From Glycocaulis sp. (GTDB lineage Bacteria; Pseudomonadota; Alphaproteobacteria; Caulobacterales; Maricaulaceae): DNA of 64,000 nucleotides. Every line of letters starts with the position of its first letter. Position 1 is the first letter of the stretch. The notes under the pieces were generated by a model that was given only the letters and a program-made list of their open reading frames with translations, searched no databases and was not told where the DNA came from. Below, piece after piece: positions 39,808 to 63,063 of this stretch. Position numbers and translations under genes: made by a program. The stretch lies in NCBI GenBank assembly GCA_022565665.1, contig JAIUMI010000001.1, positions 248,001-312,000 of the forward strand. The letters are read 5' to 3'.

Positions 39808-39882
39808 GGGCGGTTAGCTCAGCGGTAGAGCACTTCGTTCACACCGAAGGGGTCACTAGTTCGATCCTAGTACCGCCCACCA
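39808..39882 (+). tRNA. tRNA-Val (anticodon CAC)
   Basis: The 75-base gene folds as a standard cloverleaf: acceptor GGGCGGT paired with ACCGCCC, D arm GCTC/GAGC, anticodon stem CTTCG/CGAAG with loop TTCACAC (anticodon CAC, codon GUG), T arm ACTAG/CTAGT with TTCGATC. The 3' CCA is encoded. A trailing hairpin TTTGCGA/TCGCAAA lies at 39909-39927. I see no repeat of the tRNA 3' end nearby, so there is no sign of an integrated element. Confidence 0.97.
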
Positions 39883-58951: not shown

Positions 58952-59599
58952 ATGGACATGAAGACACACACCCGTCTGCCCCGCATCAACGAACGGGCAG
59001 CCCAGCGCGAAGCGACGCAGGGGCGCATACTTGATGCCGCCATCACCCTGTTTGCCCAGCGCGGTTTTGCCGGGGCATCGGTCAGCGATGTGGCACGCGC
59101 CTGCGGCTCGCCGGTGCCTCTGATCATGTATCATTTCAAGTCCAAGCAGGGACTGTGGGAAGCGGCTATCGGCCTGCTCTTCACGCGCGTGGAAAAGCGC
59201 CTGAACGAAGAAATGAAGGCGGTGAACGGACTCGCCGGACTGGCTTTCTACAAGGCTGCCATCCGCGCCCATATCCGCACGCTCGCCGCCTATCCCGAGC
59301 ACATGCATGTGCTGGTGCAGGAAGGCGCGGAGCGCACCGAACGGCTGGAATGGCTGATCGAGCATCACCAGAAGAATTTCAATGACCAGATCGTCGCCCT
59401 GATCGAAGCGGCCCAGAATGACGGACTGATCGCCAAGGCTGATCCCCAGCACCTGAAATTCGTGCTGTCCGGGGCCTTCTCCCTGCCCATCATACTGGCA
59501 CCGGAATACGCCATCATGACCGGGCGCGATGCGCTCGATGACCGGCAGATCGAAGCCCATATCGATACCTGCCTGGAACTGATCCTGAAACCGGCCTGA
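58952..59599 (+). CDS. TetR family transcriptional regulator
   Basis: The 215-residue protein has the TetR helix-turn-helix at about residues 20-68 (RILDAAITLFAQRGFAGASV then ARACGSPVPLIMYHFKSKQG) and a helical ligand-binding C-terminal domain. The target and ligand are unknown. It lies just downstream of the lipocalin gene and could regulate it; the inverted repeat at 58194-58230 is a candidate site. The start may be ATG 58952 or 58958. No strong SD is visible. Confidence 0.9.
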   Translation: MDMKTHTRLPRINERAAQREATQGRILDAAITLFAQRGFAGASVSDVARACGSPVPLIMYHFKSKQGLWEAAIGLLFTRVEKRLNEEMKAVNGLAGLAFYKAAIRAHIRTLAAYPEHMHVLVQEGAERTERLEWLIEHHQKNFNDQIVALIEAAQNDGLIAKADPQHLKFVLSGAFSLPIILAPEYAIMTGRDALDDRQIEAHIDTCLELILKPA

Positions 59600-59626
59600 T
59601 TTCACCAACTTGCATCACACAAGGGC

Positions 59627-59655
59627 TTGACGCGGTGCAGGACGCGGGGCTATCC
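59627..59655 (+). promoter_or_regulatory. Candidate promoter of the mgtE leader
   Basis: TTGACG (59627-59632) and CTATCC (59650-59655) are 17 bases apart. The -10 is weak, as is common in GC-rich alphaproteobacteria. If used, the mgtE transcript would carry a leader of about 500 bases. Confidence 0.5.
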
Positions 59656-59979
59656 CCCGCCCGCCTGCTGATGGCAGGCGCTGGTCAAGGACATCTTGAT
59701 GGACGGCAGTTCCAGTAGCCTGCGGCGGTCGCGGGCTGAAACCAACTCAACGCCCTCCGGCCTTTAGACGCCGGGTGATCCGGCAGCGGCTCCTTCTCGA
59801 GACCCGCGCTTTCGTCTGATCCGCCCGCGTTTGATGGCCTTAGAGGGCCAGACATTCGCGCGGGTGTGAGGACTTGCCTCACTTCGCTTCATCAGTTCGC
59901 GTGCCGGGACATGACACATGTTCCAGCACGCCGCCACGCATACCCCCGTGCGGGATGCTGGCAGGCAAGGAGGCTGATC

Positions 59980-60087
59980 ATGGACGAACCGTCGAGTAGG
60001 CGGGCCGTGATGCGTTCCACAGGACGTGGCGGCCTGCGCGATAAATCCATCTCAAACGCCCGTGGCAGGATGTCCGGCGCGCACTGA
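59980..60087 (+). CDS. 35-codon leader ORF upstream of mgtE
   Basis: AAGGAGG stands six bases before the ATG, an ideal initiation signal. The product starts MDEPSSRRAVMRSTGRGG and ends RMSGAH; it is basic after an acidic-proline opening. Asp-Glu-Pro directly after the start resembles the acidic/proline openings that destabilise ribosomes at low Mg2+ in MgtL-type leader peptides. Codons 4-7 (59989-60000) can pair with the left arm of the SD-sequestering hairpin of mgtE. No domain is recognised. It could also be a chance ORF, but the SD argues against that. Confidence 0.6.
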   Translation: MDEPSSRRAVMRSTGRGGLRDKSISNARGRMSGAH

Positions 60088-60124
60088 CCTTTTCATGTCG
60101 AGGAGGCCGGTGCGCCTCTGACAG

Positions 60125-60161
60125 CCTTCTGACGGGCCAATCGAAACGCCCTGTCAGGAGG
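60125..60161 (+). promoter_or_regulatory. Hairpin sequestering the mgtE Shine-Dalgarno
   Basis: CCTTCTGACGGG (60125-60136) pairs along its full 12 bases, with two G-U pairs, to CCTGTCAGGAGG (60150-60161) around a 13-base loop. The right arm contains the AGGAGG that serves the mgtE ATG at 60169. In this fold mgtE translation should be off. Confidence 0.8.
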
Positions 60162-60168
60162 ATCTGAC

Positions 60169-61566
60169 ATGACGAATAATCACATCGCGGCTGCGATCCG
60201 CGACTTTCTGAACAATAACGACACCGCGTCCATCAAGACGGCGCTGGCCAGCCTCCACCCGGCTGATATCGCCAATGCCATCGGCACGCTGAGCCCCGAC
60301 GAAGTGGCCCGCGTGCTGGTGGCGCTCGGCGTGGAAACGGCAGCCGAAGTCTTCGGCTATCTGCCCGCCGACATGCAGGCCGAAACGGCGCTCGCCATGG
60401 AACGGGATGCACTGGCCGCGCTGATAACCGCCATGTCACCCGACGAGCGGGCCGACCTCTTCAACGCCTTGCCCAAGGAGCTGCAGGACCGGCTCCTGCC
60501 CGTTCTGGCACGGGCAGACCGTGAGGATATCCGCAAGCTGTCCGCCTACCCGGAGGGCAGTGCCGGCGCGATCATGACGTCGGATTACGCGACGCTGAAA
60601 CCGGACCTCACCACAGTGGAGGCGATCGCCAAGCTGCGCCGTGAGGCTCCGAACAAGGAGACGATCTACGATTCCTACGTGGTCGATGAGGACCGCCGCC
60701 TGATCGGTGTGGTTTCCTTGCGTGATCTGCTGACCGAGCCGGACGAGGCGCTGGTCGGCGACATCATGGTGCGCGAGGTTATCGTCGTGCGTGCCGGGGA
60801 TTCCCAGGAAGAGGCCGCCCGCAAGATCGCTCAGTATGACCTTCTGGCCATCCCGGTGATCAATGGCGGGGACGCGCTGGTCGGCATCATCACCGCCGAT
60901 GACGCGATGGACGTGCAGGCGGCCGAAGCCACAGAGGACTTCTACCGCGCAGGTGGCGTGCAGGACGTGGGCAGCGACCAGAAGGGCTATCTGCCCGGCA
61001 TGAAGCGCATCACCAATGTGCGCACCGCCTCGACCTTCGTGCTTTACCGGATGCGGATCGTCTGGCTGGTGCTGCTGGTGTTCGGCAACATCTTCTCTGG
61101 TGAGGGCATCGCCTATTTCGAAGACACGATCATGGCTTATGTGGCGCTCGTCTTCTTCCTGCCCTTGCTGATCGACTCCGGCGGCAATGCAGGCTCACAG
61201 GCCGCCACGCTGATGGTGCGTGGCCTCGCAGTCGGCGATGTGAAGCTTTCCGACTGGGGCCGCATGATCGGGCGGGAAAGCTTTGTTGCGCTCCTGCTCG
61301 GCATCACCATGGCCGCTGCCGTATCGATCATTGGCATTTTCCGTGGGGGGCCGGAAATCGCGCTCGTGGTGTCCCTCTCCATGGTCGTGATCGTGCTGGT
61401 CGGTTCGATCATCGGGATGAGCCTGCCCTTCATCCTGTCCCGGTTCAAACTTGATCCGGCAGCCGCCAGTGCCCCGCTCATCACCTCCATCGCCGATGCC
61501 GCCGGCGTAGTGATCTATTTCTCGATTGCCACCGCGCTTCTCGACATCAACGCCGCGGCGGCATGA
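60169..61566 (+). CDS. mgtE: Magnesium transporter MgtE
   Basis: The 465-residue inner-membrane Mg2+ channel has the cytoplasmic N domain (about residues 20-125, helical repeats LHPADIANAIGTLSPDEVAR), two CBS domains (about 130-255) and a five-helix pore domain. The pore signature IDSGGNAGSQAATLMVRGLA is intact, and acidic residues in N and CBS domains normally bind Mg2+ to gate the channel. AGGAGG precedes the ATG but is locked in a hairpin. It leads the cluster mgtE, barrel protein, mgtC. Length is normal. Confidence 0.97.
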   Translation: MTNNHIAAAIRDFLNNNDTASIKTALASLHPADIANAIGTLSPDEVARVLVALGVETAAEVFGYLPADMQAETALAMERDALAALITAMSPDERADLFNALPKELQDRLLPVLARADREDIRKLSAYPEGSAGAIMTSDYATLKPDLTTVEAIAKLRREAPNKETIYDSYVVDEDRRLIGVVSLRDLLTEPDEALVGDIMVREVIVVRAGDSQEEAARKIAQYDLLAIPVINGGDALVGIITADDAMDVQAAEATEDFYRAGGVQDVGSDQKGYLPGMKRITNVRTASTFVLYRMRIVWLVLLVFGNIFSGEGIAYFEDTIMAYVALVFFLPLLIDSGGNAGSQAATLMVRGLAVGDVKLSDWGRMIGRESFVALLLGITMAAAVSIIGIFRGGPEIALVVSLSMVVIVLVGSIIGMSLPFILSRFKLDPAAASAPLITSIADAAGVVIYFSIATALLDINAAAA

Positions 61567-61594: not shown

Positions 61595-62281
61595 ATGAAA
61601 AAATTTCTCTTTGCTTTCAGCGCTCTGGCGCTGAGCCTTTCCGCCATACCGACAGCCTTTGCCAATGGCGGCCCTTACGCGGTGGACGATGCCGGCATTG
61701 CCACGCCTGGCAAGTTCAAGCTCGAAGCCTGGAGCTCGTTTGCCAATAATGGCGACCGGGTCTACCTCGTCTCCCCGGGCTTCACGCTCGAAGCCCTGCC
61801 CTTTATCGAGTTCGAACTGACAGCTGAAAGCCGCCGTGCGGACGGAGAGTGGGCCACCACTTTCGCGCCCGCGGCCAAGATCGCCCTGCGCGATATTGAC
61901 GAGCACGGCTACGGCCTCGCTCTTTCCATCGGCAGCGGCCATGCCGGCGTGATCCGCAATGCCGATACGCTCTATGCCGTCGTCCCGCTGTCCGTGCCGG
62001 TGAATGACCGTCTCAACCTGCATTTCAATGCGGGCGTGGAACGCGACCTTACCGAAAACGAGACCGTGGGTGTGTGGGGCATGGCCGCCCAGGTGATGGC
62101 CACCGACCGGCTGGAACTGATCGGCGAGGTGTTCGGCGCGGAGAATGATCGCCCCGGCTGGCAGGCCGGTATCCGCCCCTACGTGTTCGACGGCAATGTG
62201 GCGCTCGAGATCGTCTATGGACGCAATCTCGATGGCGAACGGGCCGACTGGCTGACCTTGGGCCTCTCGTTCGAGTTCTAG
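61595..62281 (+). CDS. Predicted outer-membrane beta-barrel protein
   Basis: The 228-residue protein has a signal peptide (MKKFLFAFSALALSLSAIPTAFA) and a mature part of alternating hydrophobic strands (FKLEAWSSFA, VYLVSPGFTLEALP, AALKIALRD-like AAKIALRDIDEHGYGLALSI, LNLHFNAGVERDL). It ends DWLTLGLSFEF with terminal Phe, as outer-membrane barrels do. AGGAG precedes the ATG. It lies 28 bases after mgtE, so it is probably in the same transcript and may serve Mg2+ entry or envelope adjustment at low Mg2+. No family name is certain. Confidence 0.8.
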   Translation: MKKFLFAFSALALSLSAIPTAFANGGPYAVDDAGIATPGKFKLEAWSSFANNGDRVYLVSPGFTLEALPFIEFELTAESRRADGEWATTFAPAAKIALRDIDEHGYGLALSIGSGHAGVIRNADTLYAVVPLSVPVNDRLNLHFNAGVERDLTENETVGVWGMAAQVMATDRLELIGEVFGAENDRPGWQAGIRPYVFDGNVALEIVYGRNLDGERADWLTLGLSFEF

Positions 62282-62355: not shown

Positions 62356-63063
62356 ATGCTCGATCCGCTGATCATCCAGTCCGCCATCAATCTGGTCGCT
62401 GCCGTCCTGCTTGGCAGCCTGATCGGGTTTGAACGCCAGTGGCGCCAGCGCCTTGCGGGCCTGCGTACCAACACGCTGGTGGCGCTGGGCTCTGCCAGTT
62501 TCGTGGTCTTCTCCACCCTTTATGGCGGGGACGAGGTGAGCCCTACCCGTGTGGCCGCGCAGGTCGTATCCGGGGTCGGCTTTATCGGGGCCGGGATCAT
62601 TTTCCGCGAAGGCTTCAATGTGCGCGGGCTCAACACGGCCGCCACGCTCTGGTGCGCCGCAGCCGTGGGTGTGCTCGCCGGTGCGGGCGCGATCGAGTAC
62701 GCCTTCCTCGTGGCGGTTCTGGTTGTGCTGGTGAACCTTCTGCTGCGCCCGCTGGCCGCGAAGATCAACCGCCAGCCCATGGACAGTGCCGAACTGCCCG
62801 CAGGCTATGCCGTCACCATTGTCTGCCGGGGCGAACAGGAAGCCCATATCCGCGCACTTCTGCTGCAGGGCGTGGCCTCGGGCGGCCTGCATCTGAAATC
62901 CCTCGACAGCGAGAATATCGAGGAGAGTGAACGGGTTGAAGTCAGTGCCGAGCTCTCCGCCGACAGCCGCGCGGACAAGACGCTGGAGCAGATTGTTGGA
63001 CGGCTGAGTCTTGAGCCGGCGGTTACGGCCGCGCGCTGGCGCATTTCCGATATGGAGCGCTAA
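62356..63063 (+). CDS. MgtC/SapB family membrane protein
   Basis: The 235-residue protein has four to five membrane helices with the family motifs LLGSLIGFERQWRQRLAGLR, TNTLVALGSASFVV and SGVGFIGAGIIFREG followed by VRGLNTAATLW. A soluble C-terminal ACT-like domain covers about residues 150-235. MgtC proteins are linked to growth at low Mg2+ and, in pathogens, to control of the F-type ATPase. It is the third gene after mgtE, which supports a magnesium role here. The ATG at 62356 precedes the first helix. Confidence 0.92.
   Translation: MLDPLIIQSAINLVAAVLLGSLIGFERQWRQRLAGLRTNTLVALGSASFVVFSTLYGGDEVSPTRVAAQVVSGVGFIGAGIIFREGFNVRGLNTAATLWCAAAVGVLAGAGAIEYAFLVAVLVVLVNLLLRPLAAKINRQPMDSAELPAGYAVTIVCRGEQEAHIRALLLQGVASGGLHLKSLDSENIEESERVEVSAELSADSRADKTLEQIVGRLSLEPAVTAARWRISDMER

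Follow-up and report, generated by a model that had tools for sequence, protein, structure and literature searches.

The mgtE gene of Glycocaulis sp. contig JAIUMI010000001.1 lies in a 64,000-nucleotide (nt) stretch (positions 248,001 to 312,000 of the forward strand, hereafter the window) and is preceded by a long leader with two predicted upstream open reading frames, uORF1 and uORF2, and a hairpin over the mgtE Shine-Dalgarno sequence (SD). This double-uORF leader is real and conserved, and it stands before an operon that runs from mgtE through a gene for an outer-membrane-type protein to mgtC. The chances seem to us about evenly balanced that it is a tandem-uORF attenuator which acts, at least at uORF2, on mgtE translation. 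Fold models support a dependence of the cost of opening the mgtE SD on the position of the ribosome along uORF2. The loss or arrest of ribosomes early in uORF2 would then be the regulatory event, and we infer Mg2+ to be its signal from the content of the operon together with the acidic start of uORF2.

Conservation was assessed by searching 137 family genomes at the protein level; mgtE was found at E <= 1e-50 in 15 of them. An orthologue of the window gene (70-100% identity) is present in six: the genome of the window itself (G000), G213, Alkalicaulis satelles (G173), Glycocaulis profundi (G183) and two Oceanicaulis metagenome-assembled genomes (MAGs; G421 and G138, here O421 and O138). All other mgtE copies found show at most 64% identity. 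The window and G213 are close relatives, so the six leaders are not independent sequences. A TTGAC promoter-like element, the two uORFs and the hairpin over the mgtE SD are common to all six.

The leader of the window (59600-60190, 591 nt) folds at a predicted -274 kcal/mol, corresponding to z = -4.9 against 100 shuffles. Its parts keep their places (Table 1). TTGAC lies 70-76 nt upstream of the uORF1 start in every leader and is followed after about 17 nt by a CTAT element in four of them, this element being absent in G213 and Alkalicaulis; the window's TTGACG-N17-CTATCC was not called by a scan with the E. coli consensus. uORF1 has 22, 22, 21, 22, 22 and 22 codons in the six leaders and begins MDG[GS]SS throughout (MDGSSS in two, MDGGSS in four). 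uORF2 is the 35-codon frame described in an earlier note on this DNA, and it is present as reported, with its ATG at 59980, the reading MDEPSSRRA... and the SD AAGGAGG at 59967-59973. Its length is 35, 35, 37, 38, 35 and 35 codons in the window, G213, G. profundi, Alkalicaulis, O421 and O138, an order that is kept below wherever six values are said to follow it. The acidic and proline-rich start to which the same note drew attention recurs among the relatives as DEP, DDP, DES, DDP, TEP and DDP (in full MDEPSS, MDDPSS, MDESSS, MDDPSS, MTEPSS and MDDPSS, in that order). The consensus is M[DT][DE][PS]SS, with Pro4 in five of six leaders and two adjacent acidic residues in five of six, a pattern that is lacking in uORF1.

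The two frames share a further feature. Codon 6 is the rare serine codon AGT in all 12 uORF copies (59714-59716 and 59995-59997 in the window), AGT making up 16 of the 298 serine codons in 14 window genes, and in all six leaders each uORF has a predicted hairpin following that codon. For the uORF2 hairpin, 96.3% of 54 cells are paired over the six sequences and two pairs have changed on both sides. The support from covariation is only moderate, because shuffles reached the covariation score in 21 of 500 cases and the number of two-sided changes in 32 of 500. Codons 3-5 of uORF2 vary at their third positions across the six leaders while the amino-acid class is mostly kept; codon 7 of uORF2 switches between Arg and Trp with its GG kept.

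The hairpin that had been proposed to cover the mgtE SD (60125-60161, with AGGAGG at 60156-60161) was likewise found. The predicted cost of opening this SD in the window, 11.7 kcal/mol, equals the maximum in a list (without gene names) of 14 values, all for window genes whose SD is clear. When the sequence upstream of the SD was shuffled 200 times, no shuffle reached this cost. The same closure test gave 9 of 200 shuffles at least as high for G213, 1 for G. profundi and 9 for Alkalicaulis.

A ribosome was then moved through uORF2 codon by codon in the model, with folding restricted to the RNA 3' of it, and the cost of opening the mgtE SD (in kcal/mol) was computed for each position. For the window the modelled cost is 5.7-7.5 with the ribosome on early codons and rises to 8.3-13.5 once it has passed codon 23-26 or so. 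The corresponding early and late values are 4.2-6.5 and 8.0-8.3 for G. profundi, 5.7-8.6 and 9.7-11.1 for Alkalicaulis, 2.6-5.4 and 6.5-16.8 for O421, 2.6-4.6 and 4.8-10.0 for O138 (with a dip to 2.6 at codon 29), and 8.1-9.4 and 8.5-10.2 for G213. Compared with shuffled uORF2 sequences the rise gave p 0.010 for the window, 0.045 for G. profundi, 0.035 for Alkalicaulis and 0.005 for O421, so that it falls below 0.05 in four of six leaders; the combined Fisher value is 2.3e-4, to be read with the relatedness of the window and G213 in mind. Another form of the test gave p 0.015, 0.317, 0.050, 0.067, 0.027 and 0.162 (same order; Fisher 9.9e-4).

The models place the competing arm at the end of uORF2, in its last third, and leave codons 4-7 almost uninvolved. 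When the first 12 codons are covered and the SD is open, 9.5-24.8 pairs are expected between the last 12 codons and the 40 nt upstream of the SD in all six leaders (the two segments overlap slightly in some of them). In the window the predicted SD-open fold pairs 60058-60069 with the left strand of the SD hairpin, and the modelled opening cost jumps once the ribosome covers this arm. By eye, every one of the six SD-open folds has the uORF2 stop codon inside a predicted hairpin. The earlier note had put forward a different pairing, between codons 4-7 (CCGTC) and the left arm of the hairpin (GACGG), and this finds no support. Only the window and G213 have both pieces; in their SD-open ensembles the expected number of pairs between codons 4-7 and the 40 nt upstream of the SD is 0.21 and 0.48, respectively, and it is 0.00 for each of the remaining four leaders. 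The logic of that proposal, by which a ribosome that does not get far turns mgtE on, survives in the fold model, subject to the reservations given below, with the arm moved to the last third of uORF2 and a threshold at about codon 23-26.

Under this reading the mgtE SD would be held in its hairpin. A ribosome reaching the last third of uORF2 would cover the arm (60058-60069 in the window), the SD hairpin would keep its left strand and mgtE translation would be low. A ribosome held or lost within the first 20 or so codons would instead leave the arm to pair with the left strand, so that the SD would become cheaper to open and mgtE translation would go up. The likely site of such an event is the conserved acidic and proline-containing start (MDEP in the window), with a hairpin just beyond it, and the likely signal is low Mg2+ acting through intrinsic ribosome destabilization, as for MgtL.

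A number of observations weigh against this account. The comparison rests on six sequences, two of them close, and the fold models contain no Mg2+, Rho or kinetics. The switch is not seen in G213 (p 0.547) and is weak in O138 (p 0.229). In four of the six leaders the SD is mostly paired at equilibrium, with or without a free uORF2 (pairing probability 0.94-1.00 in the window, 0.95-0.96 in G213, 0.89-0.95 in Alkalicaulis and 0.70-0.84 in O138, with lower values of 0.39-0.40 in G. profundi and 0.47-0.72 in O421), and what the model yields is for this reason a shift in SD opening cost and not a full flip. The closure test that singles out the window SD fails in O421 and O138, where 186 and 154 of 200 shuffles were at least as high; the footprint used removes the left arm in the Oceanicaulis leaders, and with the RNA free from stop+3 to stop+9 onward their SD costs are 11.8-16.0 and 5.9-10.0. 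In a second form of this test, the shuffles at or below the observed value numbered 0, 81, 6, 94, 64 and 31 of 200. Near the uORF2 stop the leaders of O421 and O138 reopen: while the last codon occupies the P site their costs are 6.5 and 7.0, and three bases on they are down to 1.8 and 2.8. The invariant AGT codon is not accounted for, pairing included. Finally, uORF1 has a single acidic residue near its start, and ribosome drop-off does not explain this frame for that reason.

The state of the leader without ribosomes is also a difficulty. When the RNA is free from 20 nt before uORF2 the SD cost is 5.1, 5.7, 8.3, 7.1, 3.0 and 2.9, and when it is free from the uORF1 stop it is 6.9, 8.0, 7.6, 5.0, 4.1 and 4.5 (both in the order given above). 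For G. profundi the naked RNA is thus as closed as the RNA carrying a late ribosome, and its SD would not be expected to open on the loss of ribosomes alone. The naked RNA of the window and G213 has a different pairing, in which the SD region of uORF2 (59967-59975) takes up the left strand of the mgtE SD hairpin (60125-60133), so that two SDs would compete for one strand. Given these costs and pairings, a ribosome held early on uORF2 suits the model better than a bare leader does.

The known systems with which the leader can be compared are taken here as they are described in the accessible parts of the cited papers. In the Salmonella mgtCBRU operon the short ORF mgtQ, with Asp2, Glu5 and the SD AGGAGG, promotes the translation of mgtB; mgtQ and mgtB are inversely related in translation efficiency, and the mgtB SD is freed from a stem-loop (PMC8092293). 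Shared with the present case are a short ORF with AGGAGG and Asp2 before the gene of a Mg2+ transporter, an SD closed in a stem-loop, a translational switch by alternative pairing (here a candidate one, with modelling support in four of six leaders) and mgtC in the operon. mgtQ differs in being 8 codons long, in lying between mgtC and mgtB and in having to be translated, inefficiently, for mgtB to be expressed, whereas the uORF2 frames have 35-38 codons, lie in a 5' leader, carry the competing arm at their end and precede a gene for MgtE and not for a P-type ATPase; no homology is claimed. In MgtL the EPDP motif is where ribosomes dissociate when Mg2+ is low, and the effect is exerted through Rho (PMC11282234), and the translation of corL is inverse to the expression of corA (PMC11552253). 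These leaders of mgtA and corA have acidic and proline residues right after the initiating Met, as uORF2 does, and an inverse relation between uORF translation and transporter expression that has been demonstrated there and is only expected here. They differ in working by Rho-dependent transcription termination where a shift at the SD is predicted here, and uORF1 has no EPDP-like motif. The likeness to MgtL drawn in the earlier note stands for the acidic and proline start; the nearest published mechanism is the translational one of mgtQ. The logic of the leader is most likely that of mgtQ and MgtL realised with other parts.

Tandem short ORFs are known from the leader of Salmonella mgtCBR, where mgtM and mgtP respond to ATP and proline (PMC3641672). 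There, too, an Mg2+ operon that includes mgtC has a long leader with two short ORFs (here predicted ones); the present uORFs differ from them in sharing the start MDxxSS and a hairpin after codon 6. The Thioalkalivibrio mgtE motif, a structured mgtE leader and strong riboswitch candidate reported only in that genus (PMC11109978), resembles the present leader, as far as its description goes, in being a structured leader that holds the mgtE SD. Leader control of Mg2+-related genes is shared with the M-box (ykoK) riboswitch, which includes a case with a uORF in Mycobacterium tuberculosis (PMC12810186); it is set apart by the Rfam results for the present leader. The only Rfam match at gathering score in the window is a tRNA (39808-39879), and the leader region 59550-60250, searched at E up to 10, gave three unrelated matches and neither M-box nor any other Mg2+-sensing family. 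With no Rfam match, the reading of the mgtE leader as a known riboswitch was rejected.

Among other explanations, positive translational coupling would make uORF2 an activator: a ribosome at the uORF2 stop would break the SD hairpin, or re-initiate, and so turn mgtE on. The fall in SD cost near the stop in O421 and O138 and the distance from stop to mgtE ATG of 40-49 nt in four leaders are what coupling would predict, but the cost stays high with the last codon in the P site in the window (10.7), G213 (8.5), G. profundi (8.3) and Alkalicaulis (9.7), and the window and G213 have 81 nt between stop and ATG; we regard coupling as rather unlikely. The invariant AGT and the retention of GG in codon 7 under an Arg/Trp change would be natural if ATGGAC......TCYAGT and its hairpin were an RNA element bound by a ligand, a protein or a small RNA, the frames being secondary. 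Such an element would, however, leave the conserved uORF lengths, the GGAGG before uORF2 in all six leaders and the synonymous-type variation of codons 3-5 without a reason, and with no Rfam match to the leader it appears unlikely.

The Ser-Ser pair at codons 5-6 of both uORFs, with its rare codon, might otherwise be read as the sensor of an amino-acid or charged-tRNA attenuator, for example for serine, and the proline-sensing mgtP of Salmonella offers a precedent (accessible text of PMC3641672). Only two serine codons are conserved, however, the operon is one for Mg2+ and not for serine, and acidic and proline residues are conserved in uORF2 as well, which makes an attenuator of this kind improbable. 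That both frames are chance ORFs in a GC-rich intergenic stretch with no regulatory function is very improbable: by our own estimate an ORF of 35 codons is not rare at this G+C content, but these are conserved in six leaders, the fold has z = -4.9 and covariance-model scores are far above background.

A covariance model of the uORF2 module was run against 136 genomes of the family and 372 of the class. The six leaders score 75.7-87.2 bits with it; the best match beyond them reaches 29.1 bits in the family (any match at E <= 0.1 in 37 genomes) and 28.8 bits in the class (24 genomes at E <= 0.01), where at most 12 first-look candidates were scored per genome so that divergent copies may be missed. 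The uORF1 model gives 37.2-41.4 bits in the leaders and 21.7 for the next match in the 136 genomes. An exact pattern search of 398 genomes of the order returned six matches in four genomes, five of them in these leaders and one elsewhere (G239). Of 37 loci with weaker matches to the uORF2 model that were read (L076-L112, a set that leaves out further weak matches, one of them L113 in the genome of the window), two (L080 and L087) look uORF-like; their ORF lists, on which no family search was made, contain no recognisable metal-transporter gene behind the candidate uORF. Within the samples and filters used, the full leader was found only before this mgtE-mgtC operon.

Of 41 mgtE upstream regions, 7 contain another pattern (start codon, GA, in-frame AGTNGG and SD-like bases), picked after the cases had been seen, with 10 matches in all and 0.055 expected from shuffles; without GA there are 11 matches in the same seven regions and 0.965 expected. 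The seven are the six leaders and L022, and the other 34 have no match; other short ORFs stand before some of these 34 mgtE genes. L022, from a MAG labelled Rhodobacteraceae, has mgtE followed by mgtC with no outer-membrane protein gene between them. Its leader holds one ORF (L022:2077-2163) of 28 codons with a TTG start, [M]EDGSRCMVARRFAVARPSHPIQERLHG, reading [M]EDGSRCMV..., preceded by GGAGG and followed by a hairpin, and TTGACA lies 80 nt upstream. The arrangement may be a single-module version of the leader. This evidence is by itself only suggestive because the pattern was chosen after the cases were seen, and the modelled SD cost of L022 is flat (7.1), without a switch, a further point against the attenuator reading, which would not extend to L022 in its simple form. 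No second case of this kind was found in 34 further genomes of the L022 family. A search of plasmids found one MgtE (Acinetobacter), the nearest plasmid MgtC (Aureimonas, 61.8%) had no mgtE in the 7.7 kb read, and two exact DNA patterns had no match in viral contigs. Among the matches listed by a literature search, none concerned a uORF leader for mgtE in Alphaproteobacteria; subscription papers were mostly beyond reach, and one may thus exist in print.

A broader proposal is that the leader represents an independently evolved, new class of ribosome-based Mg2+ sensor in the Alphaproteobacteria, built of two serial uORF modules (start codon, MDxxSS, the invariant AGT and a hairpin beyond the initiating ribosome), in which codon and hairpin geometry, and not the acidic peptide alone, would decide whether the ribosome survives at low Mg2+. 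This is possible, and we advance it tentatively, leaning against it at present. Leader peptides that lose their ribosomes at low Mg2+ have been elucidated in enterobacteria. If the same logic also operates here, built from different components, upstream of a different transporter family and in a different bacterial class, this would argue for repeated evolution of such sensing, and the two modules with their invariant rare codon would be a natural means of finding out what other than acidic residues causes a ribosome to fail. Some of these bacteria, we assume, come from alkaline waters. Soda lakes are described as poor in major divalent cations (accessible text of PMC4766312).

For uORF1 our guess is that it provides a first attenuation step, possibly a transcriptional one; a scan of the plus strand of 59560-60200 gave no intrinsic-terminator-like site. 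The arms around its stop codon form a possible second three-arm switch; judged by eye, they are clear in the window, G213 and G. profundi and looser in the other leaders. Together with mgtC and the competing arm within uORF2, uORF1 is a feature that the earlier note did not include.

Table 1. Features of the mgtE leader and operon in the window (coordinates are those of the 64,000-nt stretch)
Feature	Position	Strand	Basis or conservation
Promoter-like element TTGACG-N17-CTATCC	59627..59655	+	TTGAC position kept in six of six leaders
uORF1, 22 codons, MDGSSSSLRRSRAETNSTPSGL	59699..59767	+	start and length kept in six of six
Hairpin right after uORF1 codon 6	59716..59738	+	predicted at same place in six leaders
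CCGGC/GCCGG/CCGGC arms around uORF1 stop codon	59757..59784	+	by eye; two mutually exclusive hairpins possible
SD of uORF2, AAGGAGG	59967..59973	+	GGAGG in six of six leaders
uORF2, 35 codons, MDEPSSRRAVMRSTGRGGLRDKSISNARGRMSGAH	59980..60087 (stop 60085-60087)	+	start kept in six of six, length 35-38 codons
Hairpin after uORF2 codon 6-7	60000..60037	+	9 pairs, predicted in six leaders
Candidate competing arm within uORF2, GCCCGTGGCAGG	60058..60069	+	predicted partner 60125-60137; SD-open fold from codon 13 on
Hairpin over mgtE SD (AGGAGG 60156-60161)	60125..60161	+	fold models, shuffles
mgtE (MgtE_N, CBS pair, MgtE domains)	60169..61566	+	Pfam
Outer-membrane-type protein gene	61595..62281	+	call by eye, without Pfam match; same place in five other orthologous loci
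mgtC (MgtC and MgtC_SapB_C)	62356..63063	+	Pfam; start picked by eye; same place in five other orthologous loci

The outer-membrane-type gene and mgtC lie 3' of mgtE in all six orthologous loci. Among 27 loci that were read, in whole-genome cases reaching only 1500 bases past the gene and with L027-L040 and L055 not included, mgtC was found in the five orthologous loci other than the window and in L022 and in no other locus. The outer-membrane-type protein might be a porin-like partner for Mg2+ uptake. The gene 5' of the leader encodes a TetR-type regulator in the window and G213. In Alkalicaulis and Oceanicaulis (L018, L020 and L032) the gene at this position resembles a small cation transporter, which we take to be of the UPF0016/Gdt1 type to judge by its motif ELGDKTQL.

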